Made by a program: the position numbers and the translations under genes. Shown here one piece after another: positions 14,040 through 50,718 of a stretch of DNA of 64,000 nt. The notes beneath the pieces were generated by a model that made no database searches, was not told the origin of the DNA, and worked only from the letters and a program-made list of their open reading frames with translations. The stretch lies in contig NZ_KB904753.1 in NCBI RefSeq assembly GCF_000380185.1, positions 1-64,000 on the forward strand, given 5' to 3'. Each line of letters opens with the position of its first letter. The first letter of the stretch is position 1. Source of the DNA: Thiofilum flexile DSM 14609 (GTDB taxonomy: Bacteria > Pseudomonadota > Gammaproteobacteria > Thiotrichales > Thiotrichaceae).

Positions 14040-17024
14040 TTATTCGCTAGGCTCGACCTGCTGCTGAAACACGAAATTAGCCGCTGTACTTTGATTCGCG
14101 GGGTGTAAGACCACATTACTGCTTAATAAATTAATATCATTTTCTGGGCCAGCAAATAAGGTAATGCCATTTAAATTAAGGTCAGCCGTAGAGTAGCCAG
14201 TCGCTTTAAAATTACTATTGGTCACACTATTGTGGGCATCACTAATGATTTGATTGAGTACCTGAGTGTGATCATTAGTGGGGCCATTCGAGGTAATGGT
14301 GCCATTACTATCCGCATCACCTGCCCATAGTAAAGCAATAGTGCCTTGCTCTATGCGTGCGTGAGTGCCATACACTGGCGTTGTAGCTAGGGTAAAGTCA
14401 ACACTAACCGGCGTTGTTGAAAACGGTAGCGCAGTTTGAGTCATAACCCCTAGGTGATTACGGTGCTTAACAGATACCCAGTAGGTTGCGGTAGGTAAGG
14501 TCGGAAAGAGTAGCGTGGTGTCATTAGTAGCGGCATCGACAATATCACCGTCGCGCTGCAAGATAGCCGCCTTTTGTATAGCCGGTGTGGTTTCTCCCTC
14601 ACGAGTGAGTTCAACAAGTACCCAATCTACCGGAGCATCGGAGGTAGTCAGCGTGAGCAGTTCCGGTGCTAAGGTTTCGGTGCCATTATAATTAAAAGGG
14701 GCATAGTTATAGGGCTGGGCGAGAGGTAAAACTTGTAAAGAACGTAAATCATCGCGCATTAAGCCCTCTTGATAAGCGCCTTGTAGCAAAGCTCGTACCC
14801 GTAGAGCTGGGGATTGAAAACGCCACAATACTTCCGTGCCTGAAGTCGAAACAGGATAGAGTTGTAATACTTGAGTGGTCGCTTGAGCGGTAAAACCAAA
14901 GTTTTGGGTATCAAAATCTGCACCATCATCGATGCCATCAAGGTCTTGATCTTGACCGTTGAGTGTGAGGTTGGCTTCTTGCGTATCGGAGAGATAGTCA
15001 TTATCACTATTGGTATCCAGATAGTCAGGGGTATCATCCCCATCGGTATCAACCGGAATTACTCCCGCACTAGTGGCAGAGTCGTAGCTATTATCTAAAC
15101 CATCTTGATCCCCGTCGAAATAGAGCGGATTAATATAGCTTGGTGTACCTTGTCCCTCAATGAGATCGGGGATACCATCGCCATCCGAATCTAAGTCTTG
15201 ATAATTAGGTATACCATCTTGATCAGGATCGGCATCACCCTCAACGGTATTTAAAATACCATCACCATCGACATCAATATCAATGGTATCTCCCACGCCA
15301 TCTCCATCTAGATCAGTTTCAATTTCAATATAGCTACTATCATAAATACCCTCTACCGCGTCATAGATACCGTATTTGATCTGATCGACGCCGAGGAAAT
15401 TAGGATTGGCTTGATAGCTGATTGTGCCATTGGTATTTAGGGTGGCTTGTCCATTTTGGGCAGGGGTACAGATCTGATTCAAATCAAAGTCATAAACCGA
15501 GGCGACATCATTGGCTAAAGGATCGATGGTAAAGGCTTGGCGAGGACGTACTAAAACTGTGTCACGCACCGCGAAGGAGTTAGGAAAGCCTACGAAATAA
15601 CCCGCCGCTCCCCGTGAGCCTGCGACGGTACTTAAGGTCGCTAAATAAGGGAGATCGGCTGTAACATTTACCGTCCCTGTTTTGCCTAGTATGTTGTATT
15701 GGAGGTAATTAACATTACCACTGAGAGGTGTGCCTTGGGTGAGTAGTTGATTATCTACCAATACTTGAGCCTCTTTTTCACCAATGATAGTCATGGCCGC
15801 ATCCCCTATTTGCTCTACTTGAGGCAGAACGAGTTCTTGCATTTCTAAACTAGGGTGCAGTCCAGCGATAAAGTTTAAGCCTGTTCCGCTGCCGGATAAA
15901 TTAGAAGAGGTTGATTGATAGACATAGGCCGGTTGGGAGGTGCGAATATAAAGCGAGTTATCAGCTCCCCAATGTCCCGGCAGCGCATAATAGTCCCCTG
16001 CATTAATGGTCGCTATAGGTTGAGAACCGCCATTGGCATAAATAATGGTGTTATCTTTATCCGCAACGACAATCGGGACTTCGGTATTATCCGTACCGAC
16101 TCCGCGCACTAATAAAAAATCCTTACTGAGTAAGTTAGCAGGAATAATTTGATCCATACCAATATCTTGCTCTATGTCTTCTCCTCCCCCTAACCACGAG
16201 CCTGAATTCACCACAATCGGTTTATCCGCCGTGATGAGTGTGCCATTGAGTTCATTGACTAGGGTAGGCTGGACATTATTACCTGCATTCAGACGCATCC
16301 CCACCATAAAAGATTCGTATTTATTTAAAACGAGCGGATTAGGAATGGGTTGGACAAGCGTAACGCCAGCAGGTAAATCGCTAATATTAACCGTGGTATT
16401 ATCCTTAGTCGCCATAATACTAAAACTATGGGAGCGAACATGCATTTTAGCAGTATCACTACTGGTCCATAAATGCCCAGTACGAAAACGGCGTCCGAGG
16501 GCGGTCTGGCCTTTAGCGATTAAAAAATTGCCTTGGCTCTTTGAGGAGTGACGAACCTGGGCATAGAAGCGCTTATCTCCCTGCAAAACTATGCCATCCG
16601 TGCGATTAACGCTCGCAATGTCAGCATCATTAACAATACCAAGCCCGGCATAGGTCGCTCCCCCATAAGGAGCTGTATTTAAATTTAAGCGTAATGGTGA
16701 GCTCTTGGTAATCGTAACGGTTTGGTTTAAGCCTTGAGTCGGGTCACTCTCATTTAGGGCATTTTTTAGCGTAATGGTGACAGTGCCTTCTTCTGGTGTA
16801 GATAACCATAAAAATTGTTGATTAATATTGTCAATAATGAGAGCACTAGGGACATATTGAGGAGGGATAATATGCTGAGTATCGAGCGTACCAATCTCGG
16901 CTTGTACAGTGCCACAACTATTTGCATAGGCATTGGATAGATTGAATAAAATGAAAATAAAAGACCAACTCAGTATAGTTTTGATGTATAGAGTAGATGC
17001 TTTTTGAGCAAAGAATTTAGACAC
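14040..17024 (-). CDS. Large secreted protein with IgGFc-binding-like, calcium-repeat and shared C-terminal modules
   Basis: The product is 994 residues from a GTG at 17024 preceded by GGGGA; the longer TTG frame lacks a ribosome site. A signal peptide ([18 protein letters not shown]) leads into a region of about 450 residues resembling the IgGFc-binding N-terminal domain, with [10 protein letters not shown] and [14 protein letters not shown]. An Ig/cadherin-like segment follows ([20 protein letters not shown]). Next is a run of Asp-rich thrombospondin type 3-like repeats at about residues 575-685 ([18 protein letters not shown]), likely binding calcium. The last 250 residues match the C-terminus of the protein at 47251-50718, with HRNHLGVMT and WAGDADSNG. 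It is probably an extracellular adhesin or matrix protein. Its function is not known. Confidence 0.75.
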
Positions 17025-17436
17025 GAATAGTTCCCCAAACAAAACAGAAGCTAATTTTTATTTAGACTTGAGTATTTGATCGAGAGAAATAGCTTTACTA
17101 GTGTATATTTAAGATGTTGATTTTATGTGTGATTTATAGGTAAAGGATCAAATACTACGAAGCACCTCATGGCTAGTAATAAAAGCAGCCTATTGATTTT
17201 TATATTAATAACAACAACATAACCCTAACCAACTGCTTATCGTTAAGTGACTGAGTAGTTTAGGTTTTTATTAAAAAATGTGCAAGGGTAATTTGCTATT
17301 ATGAATAAACTGAGAATGCTTACTTTACGATGGGTATTGTGGGAGCAGCTTAGCTAGCGATTGGGAGCAAAAGCAGCCTTCTAATAAAAAAGACTGCTTT
17401 TGTAGCTAAAAGAGGTGCATAAAAAGGGTTAGTAAG
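17025..17436. other. Intergenic region upstream of the large secreted protein
   Basis: About 410 AT-rich bases lie between the lipoprotein gene end and the start of the 994-residue gene. No coding frame was recognised. It must hold the promoter of the minus-strand gene ending at 14040. It also holds the hairpin at 17369-17401. Confidence 0.5.
17369..17401 (-). terminator. Probable terminator after ubiG-lipoprotein unit
   Basis: AAAAGCAG (17369-17376) pairs with CTGCTTTT (17394-17401), and the loop carries an A-rich/T-rich run. It lies about 35 bp downstream of the minus-strand stop at 17437. Confidence 0.5.
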
Positions 17437-25253: not shown

Positions 25254-25303
25254 CCTTCTGTTATACTAGGTAATCCGTTATACTTTGGCGCTTAACGGTA
25301 GGT

Positions 25304-25495
25304 AAGCAGAAGAGACTGTTGGGGGTAAACTCAGACAGCACCGAAGGCGCAATTCCGCCCGGAAACGCTCAGGTAAAAGGACTGTTTGCTAATCACGCTC
25401 GGCGTGTAAGTTAACTCTGGAGAGTAGTGCTAAACGCACTCACCGAAGGGTAGTAACTGTGAATTCACAGGAATCTCTCAGGTTTCAGGACAGAG
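25304..25495 (+). promoter_or_regulatory. Tandem glycine riboswitch
   Basis: Aptamer 1 spans about 25304-25390, with P1 arms AAGCA/TTGCT and core pieces CACCGAAGG and CTCAGGTAAAAGGAC. Aptamer 2 spans about 25415-25495, with P1 arms CTCTG/CAGAG and core pieces CACCGAAGG and CTCTCAGGTTTCAGGAC. These are the conserved glycine riboswitch blocks. It precedes gcvT and a strong terminator hairpin. Glycine binding should therefore let transcription continue into the glycine cleavage operon. Confidence 0.95.
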
Positions 25496-25530
25496 GGGCG
25501 GCAGATACAGCTGTGTCTGCCGCCCCTTTT
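25495..25530 (+). terminator. Riboswitch expression-platform terminator before gcvT
   Basis: GGGGCGGCAGA (25495-25505) pairs with TCTGCCGCCCC (25516-25526), followed by TTTT. The first bases overlap the 3' P1 strand of aptamer 2 (CAGAG), so folding of the ligand-bound aptamer would compete with the terminator. This gives an ON switch in the presence of glycine. Confidence 0.85.
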
Positions 25531-38020: not shown

Positions 38021-39891
38021 TGCTGCAGGCTTTTGTGTTTCTCGCTGCGGGTGTGATTGCTGTACCTTTAGCGAGCCGCTTAGGACTAGGCGCGGTATTA
38101 GGCTATTTAATAGCGGGTGCTGTCATTGGGCCATTTGTCCTTGGTCTAGTTAAAAATCCAGAAAGCATTATGCACATCGCCGAATTTGGTGTGGTAATGA
38201 TGCTGTTTTTGATTGGTTTAGAGTTAGAACCTTCCGTGTTATGGCGTATGCGTGGCCCTATTTTAGGTTTAGGTGGGCTACAAGTAGTCGTAACAGCGGG
38301 GGTATTAGCGGCTATTGGTTTTTATGTCTTAGCTTTAACCTGGCAAGCCTCAATAGCCATTGGTTTAATTTTATCCCTATCCTCCACCGCTATTGCCTTG
38401 CAGTTATTAATGGAGCGGCAGCATTTAAAAAGTGAAAGCGGGCAAGCTAGTTTTGCCGTGTTGTTATTCCAAGATATTGCCGTTATTCCGATTATTGCCT
38501 TTTTACCTTTACTCGCTACAGCCACGACTAAAAGTAAAAAGGCTGCTGATCATTCGGGTAGTCTTATTGGTGATTTACCTGATTGGCAGCAAGCGGGTAT
38601 TACTATCGCAGTAATACTCGGTATTATTTTAGGCGGTAGAATTTTACTTCGACCTATATTACGCTTTATTGCCGATAGCCATTTACGAGAAATATTTACT
38701 GCCGCTGCGTTAATGTTAGTAGTAGGCATTGCTTTATTAATGGGTATGGTCGGTCTATCCCCTGCACTAGGTGCTTTTATTGCGGGTGTAGTATTAGCCA
38801 ATAGCGAATATCGCCATGAATTAGAAGCCACAGTTGAGCCATTTAAGGCCTTATTACTGGGGCTGTTTTTTATGTCGGTAGGGGCTAATATTGATTTTAA
38901 TTTATTATTCAAAGAGCCTAAGTTAATTACGAGTTTGGTGGTGGGTTTAGTAGCGGTTAAATTTATTCTGCTATTCTTATTAGCTAAAATCTATCGTATT
39001 AGTCATAGTGAGCGTTATTGGTTTGCTTTTTGTTTGGCTCAAGGGGGCGAGTTTGGCTTTGTATTATTAAATTTGGCCTTACAAAGTCGGGTATTGGGTT
39101 CTCATTGGGTAGATCTTTTAACCGTCACGATTGCTTTATCGATGTTAAGTACCCCACTATTAGTCATGTTTAATGAGCGCCTATTACAGCCGCGCCTTAA
39201 ATTACCAGAGCATCTAGAAATTGGTGAGGATGCTAAACTGGTAGAGCTGCAAGATACGCCGGTGATTATTGCCGGTTTTGGGCGTTTTGGTCAGATTGTA
39301 GGACGTTTGCTCGTTGCTAATAATATTCCAGTGACGGTATTAGATAATAATACTGCTCATATTGAACGAGTAAGAGCCTTTGGCTTTAAGGTCTTTTATG
39401 GGGATGCTAGTCGAGCAGATTTATTAGAGGTAGCCGGTGCTGCTACGGCTCAAGTATTAGTGATCGCCATCGATGAACGTGAAAAAGTAAAGGATATTAT
39501 TCGTATTGTTAAAAAGAACTATCCTAATTTGAAATTATATGTTCGGGCTTATGATATGCTTAATTATCAGGAACTTCAGCTCTTAGGCGTCGATCATGTA
39601 GAGCGTGAAATGTTTCGTTCTTCCGTGCAATTAGGACAGCAGGTCTTGAGGGCATTAGGTATGCGAGCTTATCAGGCTAAGCGCAAGGCTTTGCAATTTG
39701 TGATTCATGATGAAATGTTAGTCGATGCATTAGGCAAAATTAAAGCCGAACGCGGGAGTCCGGCCTTTGTGTCTGAGGCTCGACAGGTGCAAGAAGAAGT
39801 GCTTGAGTTATTACAGGCAGATCGTTTTAACCGCCATTACTACACCGATCATACGTGGGAGCGCCCACTTGAGGATGAGAGTAGCCATTAA
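38011..39891 (+). CDS. kefC: Glutathione-regulated potassium-efflux antiporter
   Basis: This CPA2 antiporter of 626 residues has about 12-13 spans followed by an RCK/TrkA-N nucleotide-binding domain from about residue 408 (VIIAGFGRFGQIVGRLL). Signature blocks are VVMMLFLIGLELEPS, FQDIAVIPI and AFIAGVVLANSEYRHELE. The product uses potassium/proton exchange to acidify the cytoplasm during electrophile stress. KefB cannot be excluded. The overlapping upstream KefF-like gene supports KefB/KefC identity. Confidence 0.92.
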   Translation: MELMLQAFVFLAAGVIAVPLASRLGLGAVLGYLIAGAVIGPFVLGLVKNPESIMHIAEFGVVMMLFLIGLELEPSVLWRMRGPILGLGGLQVVVTAGVLAAIGFYVLALTWQASIAIGLILSLSSTAIALQLLMERQHLKSESGQASFAVLLFQDIAVIPIIAFLPLLATATTKSKKAADHSGSLIGDLPDWQQAGITIAVILGIILGGRILLRPILRFIADSHLREIFTAAALMLVVGIALLMGMVGLSPALGAFIAGVVLANSEYRHELEATVEPFKALLLGLFFMSVGANIDFNLLFKEPKLITSLVVGLVAVKFILLFLLAKIYRISHSERYWFAFCLAQGGEFGFVLLNLALQSRVLGSHWVDLLTVTIALSMLSTPLLVMFNERLLQPRLKLPEHLEIGEDAKLVELQDTPVIIAGFGRFGQIVGRLLVANNIPVTVLDNNTAHIERVRAFGFKVFYGDASRADLLEVAGAATAQVLVIAIDEREKVKDIIRIVKKNYPNLKLYVRAYDMLNYQELQLLGVDHVEREMFRSSVQLGQQVLRALGMRAYQAKRKALQFVIHDEMLVDALGKIKAERGSPAFVSEARQVQEEVLELLQADRFNRHYYTDHTWERPLEDESSH

Positions 39892-39954
39892 AATAATGAG
39901 CCTTAAGGTGTGCCCTGAAGTCCGCCCTAAGCGCCTCATTAAGAAAGGATTGAT

Positions 39955-41442
39955 ATGAAAAAATTAATTAGCACCCGTACTTTGGGTGTTTGGGTGTTAG
40001 GGTGGGTTTTAATTTCAATGTCCCCGGTGTGGGCAGCCCCTAAGATAAACACCAGCGAAGAGCTGCGGCAATTAGCTAATTCTGTGGTAAAGATTTATAC
40101 CACCGCCGAAGTATTTAATTCGTTTACCCCGTGGAATTCTGGCTCAGAGTCACGTATTGGCAGTGGGTTTTTGATTGAGGGTAATCGCATTATTACCAAT
40201 GCTCATGTGGTGGCGAATGGTACTTTTATTGAAGTACAACGTGATGGTGCACCTGAGCGTTATGAGGCCGAGGTTGAGTTTGTAACCCATGAGGCTGATT
40301 TAGCTATTTTAAAAGTACAAGATAAAGCTTTTTTTACGGATAAAAAGCCGCTTCCCATTGGTGGACTACCCGATATTCACCAAGAAGTGACGGTCTATGG
40401 TTTTCCAACTGGGGGAGATAGCCTTAGTGTTACTAAGGGTATTGTGTCACGCATTGAATATCAAACCTATGCCCATAGTGATTTAATGTTTAAAGCTATT
40501 CAAATTGATGCGGCAATCAATGCCGGCAATAGCGGGGGGCCGGTATTATCGGATGGTAAGGTAGTCGGTGTCGTGATGCAGGTTGCGGGTAATGGTGAGG
40601 AGAATATTGGTTATATTATTCCAACGAGTATTTTGAATCATTTTTTAACTGATCTGGCAGATGGTAAGTATGATGGTTTTCCACGTTTGGCTTTGATCAC
40701 GGAAGAATTACTCAATCCCTCCATGCGGAAAAAATATAATTTAAAAGCCGGTGATCCCGGTATTTTAGTGACCAGTGTGTGCGCGGATACGGATGCCGAA
40801 AAGTTTATTAAGGCCGGTGATATTATTACTCGTGTCGATAAATATGCGATTGAGAGTAATGGTAGTATTATGTATTTACCTGATCGCTTTATTAATTTCT
40901 TTCATCAGATCGACATGCTACAGGTAGGGGAAACGCTAAAGCTTGAAGTATTACGAGATGATAAAAAACTGGATATTACGATGCCACTAATGAGCGCTGA
41001 TCACACCGATTATAATTACGATGAGCAACCACGTTATTGGGTCTATGGTGGTTTTGTCTTTACACCGCGCAAAATTGCTGATCGTTGTTTAACACGCTCA
41101 GAGTTTGATAAATTAGATCAACCCAAGCAAACAGAGTATGTACGTATTTCTAGAGTACTCGCCTCTAGTAGTAATGTGGGTTTTCATGATGCAAGTATGA
41201 TAGTCGATAAAGTGAATGGTCAATATTTTAATAACTTTAGTGAGTTTTATAAAATGATGAATGCTATTCAAGACCCTTTTATTACTTTAACCAGCTCTAG
41301 TGGTTATGAGGTTGTCATTGAGCGTTCATTAGCTTTAGCAGAGCATAATAAGTTATTAAAGAAATATCATATGAAAGCGGATCGCTCAGAGGATTTAAAG
41401 CTTTTAGATAAAGAGCTAAAAAACACCGCTGAGAAACAATAA
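39955..41442 (+). CDS. Trypsin-like periplasmic serine protease with PDZ region (Deg family)
   Basis: The 495-residue protein has a signal peptide ending SMSPVWA. A trypsin-like domain carries the triad His84 (TNAHVV), Asp115 (EADLAIL) and Ser193 (NAGNSGGP). A PDZ-like region is at about residues 265-335. The long C-terminus is unlike E. coli DegP and resembles the plant Deg9-like group. It likely cleaves or protects exported proteins. SD AAAGGA precedes ATG 39955. Confidence 0.88.
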   Translation: MKKLISTRTLGVWVLGWVLISMSPVWAAPKINTSEELRQLANSVVKIYTTAEVFNSFTPWNSGSESRIGSGFLIEGNRIITNAHVVANGTFIEVQRDGAPERYEAEVEFVTHEADLAILKVQDKAFFTDKKPLPIGGLPDIHQEVTVYGFPTGGDSLSVTKGIVSRIEYQTYAHSDLMFKAIQIDAAINAGNSGGPVLSDGKVVGVVMQVAGNGEENIGYIIPTSILNHFLTDLADGKYDGFPRLALITEELLNPSMRKKYNLKAGDPGILVTSVCADTDAEKFIKAGDIITRVDKYAIESNGSIMYLPDRFINFFHQIDMLQVGETLKLEVLRDDKKLDITMPLMSADHTDYNYDEQPRYWVYGGFVFTPRKIADRCLTRSEFDKLDQPKQTEYVRISRVLASSSNVGFHDASMIVDKVNGQYFNNFSEFYKMMNAIQDPFITLTSSSGYEVVIERSLALAEHNKLLKKYHMKADRSEDLKLLDKELKNTAEKQ

Positions 41443-41453
41443 TAAAGGAACGA

Positions 41454-41486
41454 AAAACTAGGGCGATAGTAATCGACCCTAGTTTT
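41454..41486. terminator. Bidirectional terminator between protease gene and crcB
   Basis: AAAACTAGGG (41454-41463) pairs exactly with CCCTAGTTTT (41477-41486). A-rich and T-rich flanks make it work in both directions. It overlaps the crcB stop. Confidence 0.8.
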
Positions 41487-41859
41487 AGAAAGCTCGTGCC
41501 GACATAAGACCTAACCCTGTTGCGAGTAGGCATAATAGAACACTACTCAAAACATAAATCCCAGCTTTGAGCCACTCTCCTGCCTCCAATAAAATCAACG
41601 TATCCAAGGAAAAGGTAGAGAAAGTGGTGTAAGCCCCTAATACCCCAACAATCACCCCACGTGCATAGGGAAGGCTCAGCCACTCACGCTGCAAAAACCA
41701 CACCGCACAGATACCGATTAGAAATGAACCGAGAATATTAATAACTAAAGTGCTATAGGGAAATTCTCGTCCTAGTGCGGCTACTAGGAGGTTAGCGGTG
41801 CCATAACGTAGCAAAGCGCCACAGGCTCCGCCTAGAGCAATGAATACTAGCGTCAACAA
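41485..41859 (-). CDS. crcB: Fluoride exporter CrcB/FluC
   Basis: The 124-residue protein has four membrane spans and matches Fluc: GGACGALLRYG near the start, NILGSFLIG, and GVLGAYTTFSTFSLDTL in span 3. It dimerises as a fluoride-specific channel. A fluoride riboswitch was looked for upstream and not found. It is convergent with the protease gene. Confidence 0.93.
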   Translation of the reverse strand: MLTLVFIALGGACGALLRYGTANLLVAALGREFPYSTLVINILGSFLIGICAVWFLQREWLSLPYARGVIVGVLGAYTTFSTFSLDTLILLEAGEWLKAGIYVLSSVLLCLLATGLGLMSARAF

Positions 41860-42190
41860 TTTTTAGCCTCTATCTCAGGGGAAGATACGCAATTTATGCC
41901 GCAAATAGGATACACTTATCAGGGCATTGCCTCAAATGAGGTTTGATTATCCATAATAGGTTAAGCATTAAAGTGGTAACTATTCACAGCGGACGGATGA
42001 CTATTTAGATATCTTTTATTTCATATGCTGCTAATAGGGCAGAGGAGCCTACGCCATACCCAGCTATTTTGAGTGCCTATCTTAGCGCTCTATAGGGTCA
42101 TGTGAGTAGCTCATAACTGAAAACATGATCTAGAGTAGGACAAGACCTAACTCTAGGTCGGCAATTTAATGAATGCGGATGCTTTATTGA
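41860..42190. other. Intergenic region with no recognised gene
   Basis: About 330 bases between crcB and the glcD remnant show no open frame with recognisable protein similarity. The crcB promoter must lie at the left end. It may represent DNA decayed from the lost glcD gene, but no motif remains to show this. Confidence 0.45.
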
Positions 42191-44760: not shown

Positions 44761-45822
44761 ATGTCTAAGACTAATTTTATTGTAGTAGCACCCCTAGTTT
44801 TTGTATTAGCTGCTTGTGGTGGAGGTGGTACGGTCAACTCTTCTGCTCCTAGCCCGCTGACGCCTACACCTACGCCCACTCCAACCCCCACACCTACGCC
44901 CACCCCAACACCGACTCCTACGCCGACACCCACCCCAACACCAACTCCTACGCCCACTCCGACACCTACCCCTAGTAGTTTGTCGCGTGCTCAAGTTGAT
45001 GCAGTGGTGGGGGTGTATATGACTAATATACATATGCAGAATGACCTGCTGAGCTTTATTACTAAAGCGACCCCTAGCTTTAATGGTAGTAAGTTCACAG
45101 TCCCATTATGCTCGGAGGGAACTTATACCTTGGATTATCAGGACAATGACCTGAATAAAAAGGTATCAGAGGGAGATCTGTACACTATTACTTTTAATAA
45201 TTGTACGAATGGCGATACGGTCTATATGTCGGGTGGTATTAGTGTGGAGGTGAGTTTTGCGAGCAGCTCCTTGCCTGCATTTAATAGCTCAGCCCAAGCC
45301 GCTTATGTGCAGGCGTGGACGTTGGGGCAGAGCACTACGTTTAAAGATTTCAAATCCCGCTCTACTAATAGCAGTGATTATGATGTGATCAATGGTTTAC
45401 TGGATACCAGCTTGGTGAATAGCTTGGAGGAGCGCAAAAGTTATGAGGCGCTCAATAGTAATAATCTGAGCTATACCGCCACAGTAGGAGGCAGCACTAT
45501 TCAGCATACCTATGAATCAATCAAGTTTCGCTACACCACTGATGTGAGTAATTTAACCTTTAAAATGCAGCATGAGTTCAAAAGTACCTATACCATGAAC
45601 AGTGCTAGCCTGACACTGGATGTATTTAGCCCCATTGAGTTTGCAGGCACATTGGGTACTCTTAACGATAAGACCTCAGCGCCTAGCTCTGGGACGGTCA
45701 ATGTCGGGGTTAAAAATTATAAAACCATTATTCTACAAGCGACGGCGACAGGACTCAGTGTATTGCTGCTCGGTAATGTCGATGCTGAAGTCAAACCATG
45801 GTCAACGTATGGCTTTCATTAG
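44761..45822 (+). CDS. Lipoprotein with a long Pro-Thr repeat linker
   Basis: The 353-residue protein has a lipoprotein signal with lipobox LAAC at about residue 19. Residues about 34-70 are almost pure Pro-Thr dipeptides. The rest is a folded domain with KFTVPLCSEGTYTLDY and ITFNNC, where two Cys residues could form a disulfide, and no named family was recognised. The Pro-Thr arm likely spans the periplasm or the wall. It is a monocistronic unit. Confidence 0.75.
   Translation: MSKTNFIVVAPLVFVLAACGGGGTVNSSAPSPLTPTPTPTPTPTPTPTPTPTPTPTPTPTPTPTPTPTPTPSSLSRAQVDAVVGVYMTNIHMQNDLLSFITKATPSFNGSKFTVPLCSEGTYTLDYQDNDLNKKVSEGDLYTITFNNCTNGDTVYMSGGISVEVSFASSSLPAFNSSAQAAYVQAWTLGQSTTFKDFKSRSTNSSDYDVINGLLDTSLVNSLEERKSYEALNSNNLSYTATVGGSTIQHTYESIKFRYTTDVSNLTFKMQHEFKSTYTMNSASLTLDVFSPIEFAGTLGTLNDKTSAPSSGTVNVGVKNYKTIILQATATGLSVLLLGNVDAEVKPWSTYGFH
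44861..44974 (+). repeat. Low-complexity Pro-Thr coding repeat
   Basis: Tandem six-base units of the form ccnacn (CCTACG, CCCACT, CCAACA) encode Pro-Thr repeats within the lipoprotein. Units keep the frame because they are multiples of 6, so copy changes would change linker length and not cause frameshifts. The opposite strand shows an artefact Gly-Val frame. Confidence 0.9.
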
Positions 45823-47250: not shown

Positions 47251-50200
47251 ATGTCTAAAATATTTGAGCTACTCAAGCTAAAAAATATATCATCTACCTA
47301 CCCTCCCACATTACTAAAACTGATCATAGCTATATTATTGTTCAGTTTCGGAAATATCGCTCAGGCGACTATGGTGGTAGAGACCTGCGGTAGTATGGAT
47401 TTATCGACGACCGCCAATCCTGCTCCTTGGACAGGTACTCCCATAACTTCAACCGTGACTAAAGTGAATGCCGGACAAAATGTGAAAGCCTGTTCGGCAT
47501 ATAACTTCGGGAAAGTGAATGCCACCATACTCGGTTTTGGTACTGCTGATCAGGTTTCCCCCGGCGGAACTGGATATCAATACTTAATGGACTTTAATCA
47601 ACCGGTACATGGTTTGAACTTTAAACTATCCGCTTTGGTTAAAACAGGATTAATTAATGGCATATATGGCTATGGTGAGTCTGTTAAATTAGTCATTAAT
47701 TTATCAAGTGGAGGCACCTATACATTACAAGCCGCTAATGTGAGTAATATGACGGGGTTGTCGCGTTCGGGCAATAATTTTGCTGCGACGACAATGACGA
47801 ATGGAAGTGTAGACATTTCTTTGCCTACTACCGTGTCGGTGAGTTCTATCCGGTTTGAAATGTATGATACTGAGCTGAGTTCTGCTAACTGGTTCTGTGG
47901 TAGTGCGGCATCTAATGGTATGTGGTTTACGGGTACTAATGCTTGTACTAATACGACGGTTCAAATTGATAAATCAGATGCGCCCATTACAGGTGTAAGT
48001 GCTAATGGGACAGGTACGAATAGCTATGGTGAAACACTTCATCAAATCGTGCCCGGTATCTTATTAGGTGCTGCTATCGATGATGATACGGCAAGCCTTG
48101 CTAGTATCGGAGCTACTGGTGATGGTAGCGATGACGATGGTATTGTTTTCCCCGTATTGAAGCAGGGACAAACCGCTACGATTACGGCAACCGTCGCAGG
48201 CGCTGGTGGCTTTTTGCAAGGTTGGATCGATTGGAATGGCAATGGAGTGTGGGAGGCTAGTGAGCAAGTCGCTGTCAATATACAAGATAATGCTACGGGC
48301 GATACTAACGCTGCAACGGGTGTGATCAGTTTTAATGTCAATGTACCTACTAATGCCGTTACTACTCAGACCTATGCTCGCTTTAGATGGTCAACCACTA
48401 CAGATCTTAATAGTGTCAGTAATGCGAGTAATGGTGAGGTGGAGGATTATGCTGTCACCGTATTAATAGGCAATAGAGCGCCTGTGATTACGAGTAATGG
48501 GGGGGGTGATACCGCCGCTATTAGTGTGCCAGAAAACCAAACCGCAGTAACAACGGTAACAGCCACCGATGCGGATGGGGACACCTTAACCTATAGCATT
48601 ACAGGTGGAGCTGATGCGGCTAAGTTCACCATTAATAGTAGTACGGGTGTCTTACAATTTGTCTCAGCTCCCGATTATGAGGCTCCCACCGATGCTGGGG
48701 CTAATAATGTTTATGATGTTCAAGTGACTGTATCCGATGGCAAAGGTGGCACAGATATGCAGGCCATTGCTGTAACAGTGACTAATCTGCCTGAGCTGCC
48801 TGTTATTGGGGGAACTCCGAGCTGTACGGCTACCGGGGGTACTGATGTCATTTTTCTCTTGGATAACTCAGGCTCTGTCCTTGCTGCAGAATATACTGAA
48901 TATGCCGCAACGGTGGTGAGTATTGGTAATGCGCTGCGTACTGCTAATCCAGCCACCCGTATTGCTGTCGCTCATTTTGCAGGCCCCGTTGCTGGTGGTA
49001 GTGTACTCTTAGCCAATTATGGACAGTATCTCTCTCTAGAGCGAGACTTCTCAACGGCGGCACTCTCCTCACCTGTACGCCAATTTCCCAGCATTTATAA
49101 TTATACTGAGGACAACCTAGCGGGCGCTGTGAATCAGTTGAGCTATGCGCTTGACGGCAATGCCAGCACCACCTCAAGTTTTATTCTAAGCCCCCTCAAG
49201 GAGCTGAGCCGTGATTTAAGTCGCCCCTTACAAATCGTCATTTTCACCGATGCCTATCGAGACGGGTCTGTTGCTGGTTCTTCTATGATTGATGGCGTGG
49301 GGTATGGCTACGAGCCGAATGATGGGTCAAATTTTACTATCTACAATCTATTAAAAGCCCAAGGTGTTAAGTTTTCAATGGTATCGCTTACGCTACCTAA
49401 TGGAAGCACAGCAGATGAGCGTGATGGCGCGGCTGCAGCCATTGCCTCTGTCGGTGGTTCTTGGAGTGGTATTATAGAAAGTAATCCTTCTGATCCTGAT
49501 GGATCTAAGACTAGCCCTAGACGCTATGAAACCTCCTCTACCTTCACTCTTTCTGCGGCACAAATTAGTAATTTCGTAACGCCGATCGCTAATGTCTGCC
49601 CTATTGCACCGGCTAATAGAGCGCCTGTGATTACCAGTAATGGCGGAGGAAATACAGCAAGTATTACCTTAGCAGAGGGAACACAAACGGTTACAACAGT
49701 AACAGCAACCGATGCCGATAATGATGTGCTCACTTATAGCATTAGTGGGGGAGTGGATGCAGCACGCTTTAGTATTCAAGCGAGTACGGGTGTTTTAACC
49801 TTTATCACTCCGCCTGATTTTGAAGCGCCAACCGATAGTGATGGTAATAATAGCTATCTAGTGACGGTATCGGTGAGCGATGGTAAGGGCGGGGTGGATA
49901 CCCAAGTGCTTACGATTACGGTCACCAATACACCAGAAGGTGTGAGCCTCTCCGTCATGGGGTTATTACAAGGCCCTTATGATTCTGTGAGCACACTAAT
50001 GAATGATAGTCTGCGTGTACTGAATCTTATCCCTACTACACAGCCTTATAGTCGTTATACTGCTTTCAATTACACAGGAAATGAAGTGGTTAGTAGTACT
50101 CGTCTAGCCGTCACAGGTGCTTCTGCTATTGTAGACTGGGTGATAATCGAGTTACGTGATGCGACTAATCCTAGTACTATTGTGGCACAAAAGGCGGGAC

Positions 50201-50718
50201 TATTGACGCGTGAAGGACTCGTGCTGAATCCAAGCAATGATAGTGCACAATGGCTCATATCAGCAGTCAATGATGGGTCTTACTATGTGGTATTGCGCCA
50301 TCGTAATCATTTAGCGGTGATGACTAAAGCGCCTATTGCGATGAGTTTGACTCTAAATAGCGTGGTAGATTTCCGTTTAAGCTCGACACCGACCTATGGC
50401 GCACAAGCGCAATTAATGGCTGGTAGCAAAGCAGTAATGTGGGCGGGTAATGCTAATTTAGATAAAAATATTATCGTTAATGGCCCCAATAATGATGTGA
50501 GTCCGGTGTTATCCAATGTTTTACTAGCCGAGGGTAATACCTTATTTAATGCAAATTATGTGTACCAAGCCTATTCCAATTCCGATATTAATATGGATGG
50601 AGTGACTATTTTTGCAGGCCCTGGTAATGAGTTAAATATTGCTACGGGCAATATTATTCTACACCCCACTAATACGACATTATCTGGCAACTATGTGATA
50701 TTGGGTACGGTGCCTTAA
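47251..50718 (+). CDS. Large secreted protein: GEVED, cadherin-like, VWA and shared C-terminal module
   Basis: The 1155-residue product has a signal peptide (LLKLIIAILLFSFGNIAQA). Residues 260-405 hold a GEVED domain (WIDWNGNGVWEASEQV, NGEVEDYAV). A cadherin-like repeat at about 407-512 (NRAPVITSNGGG) is followed by a VWA domain from about 528 with MIDAS motif DNSGS. A second cadherin-like repeat at 788-893 nearly duplicates the first. Residues 897-1155 match the C-terminus of the protein at 14040-17024 (HRNHLAVMT, MWAGNANLDKN, TIFAGPGNELN). It is probably an adhesion or surface protein. Its function is unknown. Confidence 0.8.
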   Translation: MSKIFELLKLKNISSTYPPTLLKLIIAILLFSFGNIAQATMVVETCGSMDLSTTANPAPWTGTPITSTVTKVNAGQNVKACSAYNFGKVNATILGFGTADQVSPGGTGYQYLMDFNQPVHGLNFKLSALVKTGLINGIYGYGESVKLVINLSSGGTYTLQAANVSNMTGLSRSGNNFAATTMTNGSVDISLPTTVSVSSIRFEMYDTELSSANWFCGSAASNGMWFTGTNACTNTTVQIDKSDAPITGVSANGTGTNSYGETLHQIVPGILLGAAIDDDTASLASIGATGDGSDDDGIVFPVLKQGQTATITATVAGAGGFLQGWIDWNGNGVWEASEQVAVNIQDNATGDTNAATGVISFNVNVPTNAVTTQTYARFRWSTTTDLNSVSNASNGEVEDYAVTVLIGNRAPVITSNGGGDTAAISVPENQTAVTTVTATDADGDTLTYSITGGADAAKFTINSSTGVLQFVSAPDYEAPTDAGANNVYDVQVTVSDGKGGTDMQAIAVTVTNLPELPVIGGTPSCTATGGTDVIFLLDNSGSVLAAEYTEYAATVVSIGNALRTANPATRIAVAHFAGPVAGGSVLLANYGQYLSLERDFSTAALSSPVRQFPSIYNYTEDNLAGAVNQLSYALDGNASTTSSFILSPLKELSRDLSRPLQIVIFTDAYRDGSVAGSSMIDGVGYGYEPNDGSNFTIYNLLKAQGVKFSMVSLTLPNGSTADERDGAAAAIASVGGSWSGIIESNPSDPDGSKTSPRRYETSSTFTLSAAQISNFVTPIANVCPIAPANRAPVITSNGGGNTASITLAEGTQTVTTVTATDADNDVLTYSISGGVDAARFSIQASTGVLTFITPPDFEAPTDSDGNNSYLVTVSVSDGKGGVDTQVLTITVTNTPEGVSLSVMGLLQGPYDSVSTLMNDSLRVLNLIPTTQPYSRYTAFNYTGNEVVSSTRLAVTGASAIVDWVIIELRDATNPSTIVAQKAGLLTREGLVLNPSNDSAQWLISAVNDGSYYVVLRHRNHLAVMTKAPIAMSLTLNSVVDFRLSSTPTYGAQAQLMAGSKAVMWAGNANLDKNIIVNGPNNDVSPVLSNVLLAEGNTLFNANYVYQAYSNSDINMDGVTIFAGPGNELNIATGNIILHPTNTTLSGNYVILGTVP

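Follow-up and report, generated by a model that had tools for sequence, protein, structure and literature searches.

A predicted X-dockerin-like module on large secreted proteins of Thiofilum flexile, its filamentous relatives and Bacteroidota

We analyzed a stretch of 64,000 nucleotides of the genome of Thiofilum flexile DSM 14609, referred to here as the window. On its reverse strand, positions 14040 to 17024 hold a gene for a giant secreted protein, P0001, of 994 amino acids when read from the GTG codon at 17024. The frame can be extended to a TTG codon at 17042 (14040 to 17042, 1000 amino acids), but this is merely the longest open frame. Given that inspection of the sequence reveals ggggaa directly 5' of the GTG codon, the true start is probably the GTG at 17024 and not the TTG at 17042, in agreement with the gene boundary of a first-pass annotation of this DNA. 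A simple hydropathy scan finds a Sec-signal-like N terminus with a hydrophobic core (16920 to 17024, reverse strand). It is followed, on the same strand, by an IgGFc_binding domain (PF17517, residues 181-469, 15636 to 16502, E = 3.1e-31) and a Big_9 Ig-like domain (PF17963, residues 490-564, 15351 to 15575, E = 2.7e-9), both above the cut-off, and by Asp/Asn-rich TSP3-like calcium repeats at residues ~575-719 (14886 to 15320), which are apparent from the sequence and have a weak, below-cut-off match to NCBIfam NF047638 (E = 0.01). The protein ends in a 252-residue module (14043 to 14798, reverse strand), delimited by blastp, an AlphaFold2 model and fold searches.

A second large gene lies on the forward strand at 47251 to 50718. 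Its product, P0002 (1155 amino acids), has a signal-like N terminus followed by GEVED, cadherin, VWA-like (a weak match) and cadherin domains, as identified by a domain scan of the ORF, and it ends in a copy of the same module (49954 to 50715, forward strand), recognized by blastp and shared motifs. When P0001 and P0002 are compared by blastp, there is a single real alignment, which joins residues 746-992 of P0001 (in its 1000-residue numbering) to residues 899-1150 of P0002 with 98 of 252 positions identical (39%), 189 bits and E = 4e-53. All remaining local matches have E >= 5; therefore, the rest of the two proteins is unrelated. These results bear out the first-pass claim that the two proteins are alike only at their C-terminal ends, and the motifs quoted for it (HRNHL.VMT, WAGDA/WAGNA, NGP.ND and FAGP.N) are present. 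Elsewhere in the window we observed a tandem glycine riboswitch (two aptamers, 60 and 56 bits) at 25297-25503, upstream of an ORF at 25529, and a lipoprotein-like ORF at 44761-45822 whose signal region leads into a long (PT)n repeat.

The module had been presented as common to two genes; it is indeed shared by both, but the family is far larger. When the T. flexile genome (3.79 Mb in 71 contigs, 100% complete) is searched for the 252-residue module, copies are found at 25 places, all of them in long open frames that no stop codon interrupts. Apart from the query itself, they are 39-50% identical to it, with E values from 1e-53 to 4e-76. A Sec-signal-like hydrophobic stretch is found by simple hydropathy scan in about 20 of the 22 carrier ORFs with a complete 5' end. 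We tallied Pfam domains over 24 full-length proteins, leaving out one at the end of contig C32 that is split over two loci; Big_9 occurs in 17, Cadherin in 16 and GEVED in 9. Two of the copies, C19:1-2961 and C32:18933-21893, lie at contig ends and seemingly share the same protein start before diverging, probably because the assembly broke within module paralogues that are almost identical. In a further carrier (C20:29735-32203), the N terminus looks out of frame, a possible sign of an upstream frameshift or a wrong start.

The first-pass annotation had raised the question of whether every copy ends its protein. Inspection of whole ORFs indicates that this is not so: in 22 of the 25 T. flexile ORFs, at most 16 residues separate the end of the module from the C terminus. 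A carrier on contig C10 has it internally, and in two proteins encoded on contig C57 it stands directly after the signal peptide, with about 945 residues C-terminal of it. Therefore, the module is not strictly a terminal signal. Both C57 proteins contain the motif HEMGHN, and Peptidase_M60 and IMPa domains match two of the 24 T. flexile carriers scanned, which are presumably these same two. They thus appear as two paralogous secreted peptidases of M60/IMPa type (C57:34590-38258 and 38495-42172 of the T. flexile genome, G000), whose N-terminal module reverses the layout of most other carriers. No cytoplasmic carriers were seen, and no described enzyme domain matches the module.

A C-terminal position likewise prevails among relatives. 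No more than 25 residues follow the module in 98 of 105 relatives whose 3' end is closed, four of the 109 module matches having been left out of this count for open 3' ends. Of the Bacteroidota, 49 of 64 have the dipeptide LP among their last 8 residues; of the Gammaproteobacteria, 14 of 41 do. Two relatives (L085 and L088) continue for ~610 residues past the module with TSP3-like repeats. Another two with a non-terminal module (L066 and L079) come from one assembly and, judged by eye, are apparently frameshifted. The other three of the seven exceptions (L093, L096 and L105) have a different repeat pair as their second half, as described below.

This overwhelmingly terminal placement, on diverse secreted carriers with no other visible export domain, is what would be expected if the module were a C-terminal export or sorting signal in the manner of the C-terminal domains of the type IX secretion system (T9SS), served by a translocon that Thiothrix would share with Bacteroidota. 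In the Bacteroidota carriers seen, the protein finishes with the module and not with a T9SS C-terminal domain, and the translocon domain SprA_N (PF14349) is present in 7 of the 7 Bacteroidota carriers tested, which served as positive controls. The same domain is absent from the T. flexile genome, in which the first-pass annotation had called for a check for a type IX partner, and from all three Thiothrix/Thiolinea genomes searched. We therefore rejected a T9SS in T. flexile. The module resembles T9SS C-terminal domains (type A and type B/CHU_C) in being C-terminal on giant surface proteins, but it differs from them in fold, in being carried by an organism without the T9SS translocon and in not always being terminal. 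The N-terminal and internal copies in T. flexile and the relatives that extend beyond the module also argue against an export signal, as does a predicted fold that resembles X-dockerins. In addition, the last 60 residues of the 25 T. flexile ORFs contain no hydrophobic segment, the highest 17-residue hydropathy mean being 1.45. A sortase- or exosortase-type tail was rejected on sequence, there being no hydrophobic C-terminal segment with a basic tail. We consider an export signal unlikely, and the earlier suggestion of a sorting signal is weakened.

We next consider the predicted structure of the module. The AlphaFold2 model, built from 89 module rows, has a mean pLDDT of 96.6 and a pTM of 0.92. 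In the model, the first half of the P0001 module (VDWVLVEL ... HRNHL, 14328 to 14798, reverse strand) is a transthyretin/X-module-like beta-sandwich according to DSSP, and transthyretin-like rows span model residues 1-161. The second half comprises two repeats, each with a putative calcium loop that leads into a helix of the model: loop 1 at module residues 161-176 (14271 to 14318, reverse strand) with helix 176-185, and loop 2 at residues 206-221 (14136 to 14183, reverse strand) with helix 221-230. The repeats match one another in hhalign with a probability of 99.3% (E = 3.3e-20), indicating that they are duplicated. Counts over the 89 rows show that ligand-type residues are retained in both loops, as D206 (89/89), N/D208 (82/89), D/N210 (84/89) and D/E221 (88/89) in loop 2, and as D/N/E161 (87/89), N/D163 (68/89) and D176 (85/89) in loop 1. 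The calcium repeats of the first-pass annotation were thus right in two senses, given the TSP3-like Asp/Asn-rich stretch of P0001 and the two duplicated loops inside the module.

When the model was compared with the PDB by Foldseek, no match fell below E = 0.001, and the top two matches, both from A. cellulolyticus ScaA, were X-dockerin dyads (E = 0.020 and 0.035, probability 0.87 and 0.82). Re-ranking of the Foldseek chains by VIA placed type II X-dockerin dyads in all of the top eight positions, in the order 4wi0 (Z 8.6, 141 residues aligned, 3.7 A), 4u3s, 3kcp, 4fl4, 5m0y, 2b59, 5g5d and 5k39 (Z 6.9), where a Z near 8 can reflect a common arrangement. The eight superpositions align 137-150 residues at an rmsd of 3.7-4.4 and span model residues 1-251. 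The ninth row drops to Z 4.4; after these entries come transthyretin-like folds, which align with the first half alone. We read the module as X-dockerin-like because all eight top entries share one architecture that is aligned over both halves.

As in the type II X-dockerin dyads of cellulosomes (thermocellum CipA, A. cellulolyticus ScaA), an Ig/transthyretin-like X sandwich directly precedes two calcium-loop/helix repeats at the C terminus, and both halves of the predicted module superpose globally on the dyads. The model has the rigid dyad of X sandwich and dockerin half as well as the two duplicated loop/helix repeats of an X-dockerin. The canonical calcium loop of dockerins has 12 residues. 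The loops of the module have 16, with an xGPxN insertion, and the module measures ~252 residues against ~156 for the dyads. It is also carried by adhesin-like proteins of Gammaproteobacteria and Bacteroidota, and no cohesin is detectable in T. flexile. Compared with type I dockerins (PF00404), the module has the same duplicated D-x-N-x-D-G loop and helix, but its loops carry the insertion and no member reaches the Pfam cut-off: none of the 89 rows matches Dockerin_1 at E = 0.01. In three relatives (L093, L096 and L105), the first half of the module is intact and the second half is swapped for a different repeat pair with 12-residue loops, which takes the canonical dockerin form in L096 and L105 and gives weak Dockerin_1 matches there (E = 0.19 and 0.49); these two relatives lie outside the set of 89 rows. 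Given the loop length, the missing Dockerin_1 match and the lack of a cohesin in the genome, we do not assign the module to the dockerin family proper. The earlier guess of a dockerin-like calcium-binding module is nevertheless well supported by the predicted structure, the internal duplication and the relatives with a plain dockerin-type repeat pair.

Judging from these searches, the module is described by no Pfam or NCBIfam model. At E = 0.01, Pfam gives scattered matches to the 89 rows, with at most 4 rows per family (Y_Y_Y), and in NCBIfam no more than 2 rows match either of the two families found. Searches of PDB sequences return a best phmmer E of 0.11 and no profile match at E = 10, and PHROGs return weak, scattered matches alone. 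We found no literature linking Thiothrix and dockerin. The X-dockerin literature that we found concerns, in the portions available, cellulosomes or cellulosome-type cohesin-dockerin systems, and for cohesin, dockerin and Saprospiraceae together we found a CAZyme metagenome study alone, available in part. Cohesin/dockerin systems outside cellulosomes, from both archaea and bacteria, were reportedly described by Peer in 2009. In ANME archaea, according to the available part of the paper, dockerin-like modules occur on surface proteins outside cellulose degradation, where classic Pfam dockerins and cohesins were counted (PMC9012536). The module likewise adds a dockerin-like element to surface proteins, but here it is invisible to Pfam dockerin models.

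One scan of genome contigs yielded 320 relatives of the module. The best 80 of these 320 correspond to 78 loci, all of which belong to Thiotrichaceae/Thiolinea-type Gammaproteobacteria or to Bacteroidota. Within the order, the module occurs in 27 of 63 genomes: in the only genome of its own genus in the set (T. flexile, 25 copies), in 2 of 3 genomes of group g6, in 8 of 9 of g7, which includes Thiolinea disciformis, in all 16 of g8, which includes Thiothrix fructosivorans, and in none of the 34 of g2-g5. One copy is on the T. fructosivorans plasmid pTfr446 (L060 4998-5747). Among 295 Bacteroidia genomes, 35 carry the module, with copy numbers that are lower bounds since at most 9 candidates were scored in each. 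Sulphur-type filaments and Bacteroidota co-occur in activated sludge. We built a tree from 112 modules, 52 of them from Bacteroidota and 60 from Gammaproteobacteria. The gammaproteobacterial set lies on one side of a branch with support of 99/90; the bootstrap is not fully settled, and the midpoint root gives no direction for the transfer. The topology fits a single transfer followed by expansion. Thus, the module family apparently entered the Thiothrix/Thiolinea branch once and expanded most in T. flexile.

Given the likeness to X-dockerins, the expected partner would be a cohesin. Neither Pfam PF00963 nor a Thiotrichaceae-specific cohesin profile (A8) has a match in the T. flexile genome at E = 10. 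Across the 295 Bacteroidia genomes, PF00963 cohesins show no association with the module, being present in 6 of the 35 genomes that carry it and in 42 of the 260 that do not (p = 0.52), and we therefore rejected a Pfam-type cohesin as the general partner. Individual Bacteroidota carriers can be rich in cohesins, with 23 matches in G001 and 14 in Phaeodactylibacter luteus (G004) among the 10 carriers searched. Scaffoldin-like proteins are found there as well. One (L138 2179-7926, reverse strand) has seven cohesin stretches, then SprB repeats and, at its end, a CHU_C T9SS signal, another (L139 2-5266, forward strand) has tandem cohesins and SprB-like repeats, and both adjoin a PorP/SprF gene. 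The cohesin array of this kind in P. luteus stands beside PorP/SprF.

In Thiothrix relatives, we observed a conserved, single-copy gene of ~425 amino acids in which an N-terminal domain of ~150 residues is fused to the module, and which has a trypsin-like gene downstream of it in 5 of 5 loci (L057, L065, L067, L071 and L075); the trypsin-like neighbor at L065 matches Trypsin_2 with E = 4e-9. This N-terminal domain is a cohesin. PF00963 matches 7 of 26 family members (best E = 3.2e-8), hhalign against Bacteroidota cohesins gives 96% (E = 4e-9), and 27 of 29 Foldseek matches of its model, which is of moderate confidence (pLDDT 68.7), at E <= 0.001 are cohesins, with VIA placing cohesin rows in a tie with other beta-sandwiches. 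By analogy, the combination of cohesin and X-dockerin-like module is the layout of a scaffoldin. Cohesin-like domains occur in 23 of the 63 genomes of the order (12/16 in g8, 6/9 in g7, 1/3 in g6, 2/6 in g3 and 2/9 in g4). In the ORFs examined, the g8 proteins carry the module and the g7 proteins lack it, mostly having, as judged by eye, a hydrophobic, membrane-anchor-like tail.

Such proteins could make the module a true cohesin-binding X-dockerin, received by the Thiothrix cohesin-plus-module protein or the membrane-tailed Thiolinea cohesin protein. The frequency of cohesin-like domains in module genomes of the order (19 of 27, against 4 of 36 others; Fisher p = 2.6e-6, confounded by descent) and the cohesin identity of the candidate receptor domain speak for this reading. 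It is opposed by the 8 module genomes of 27 that have no cohesin domain, including T. flexile with the most copies, by the missing association in Bacteroidia, and by the adjoining trypsin-like protein, whose own dockerin-like DG..LLRYL.GLRG repeats are the more obvious cohesin partner. Since the Thiothrix-type cohesin protein is absent from T. flexile, the genome richest in modules, the Thiothrix cohesin may serve the repeats of the neighboring protease. We regard a cohesin-binding X-dockerin as quite improbable. A second dockerin-like repeat type (D.D.NG...DG..LLRYL.G.RG) is found in Thiotrichaceae (L065 5768-7522, L222 1086-2660, L229 and L232), where it sits on the trypsin-like neighbor or on cohesin proteins; the L222 repeats match Dockerin_1 at E = 0.062.

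We also searched the gene neighborhoods of the 78 loci and of the T. flexile contigs. With one exception, no module-adjacent family is common to both phyla; the exception is a cluster of 29 multi-domain proteins from 19 loci, which presumably group together through repeat domains that they have in common. The anchoring role proposed in the first-pass annotation is plausible, but neither the cohesin searches nor the neighborhood search found a receptor. That no protein partner emerged, and that the domain is portable to N-terminal and internal positions, would suit a calcium-stabilized structural end-cap or a binder of carbohydrate or LPS with no protein partner. Residues that are not calcium ligands, along the second helix and the tail (HP.N.T.SAN), are highly conserved across the 25 paralogues, which suggests a shared binding face and argues against an end-cap or glycan binder, as does the lack of a match to lectin families. 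We hold this explanation to be very unlikely.

With some reserve, we favor an X-dockerin-like docking role for the module, through which secreted, adhesin-like proteins would be attached to a partner at the surface. Its predicted transthyretin/Ig-like sandwich, the X half, would pack on a dockerin-like half made of two duplicated repeats, in each of which a 16-residue Asp/Asn calcium loop precedes a helix, and the whole would act as a plug. The cargo would be adhesin-like proteins (with cadherin, Big, GEVED, VWA, TSP3 and IgGFc-binding domains) together with the two M60/IMPa-type peptidases, exported by Sec and then by an outer-membrane route. We infer that the module binds calcium and docks, and that its carriers are at the surface; folding on calcium outside the cell, it would fix each protein to a common partner on the cell surface or in the matrix. 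As a more tentative proposal, Thiothrix-type filaments and many Bacteroidota might possess a non-cellulosomal X-dockerin-like system that holds a protein coat of dozens of adhesin-like proteins, with a receptor that is either of a new class or a cohesin diverged beyond recognition.

In T. flexile, 25 large secreted proteins share a module that Pfam and NCBIfam do not cover, so that annotation has missed how they are attached and exported. Should the module serve in docking, the X-dockerin architecture would no longer be confined to cellulosomes but would extend to surface coats in sulphur-type filaments and Bacteroidota. The module also opens a way to test how these proteins are kept at the cell.
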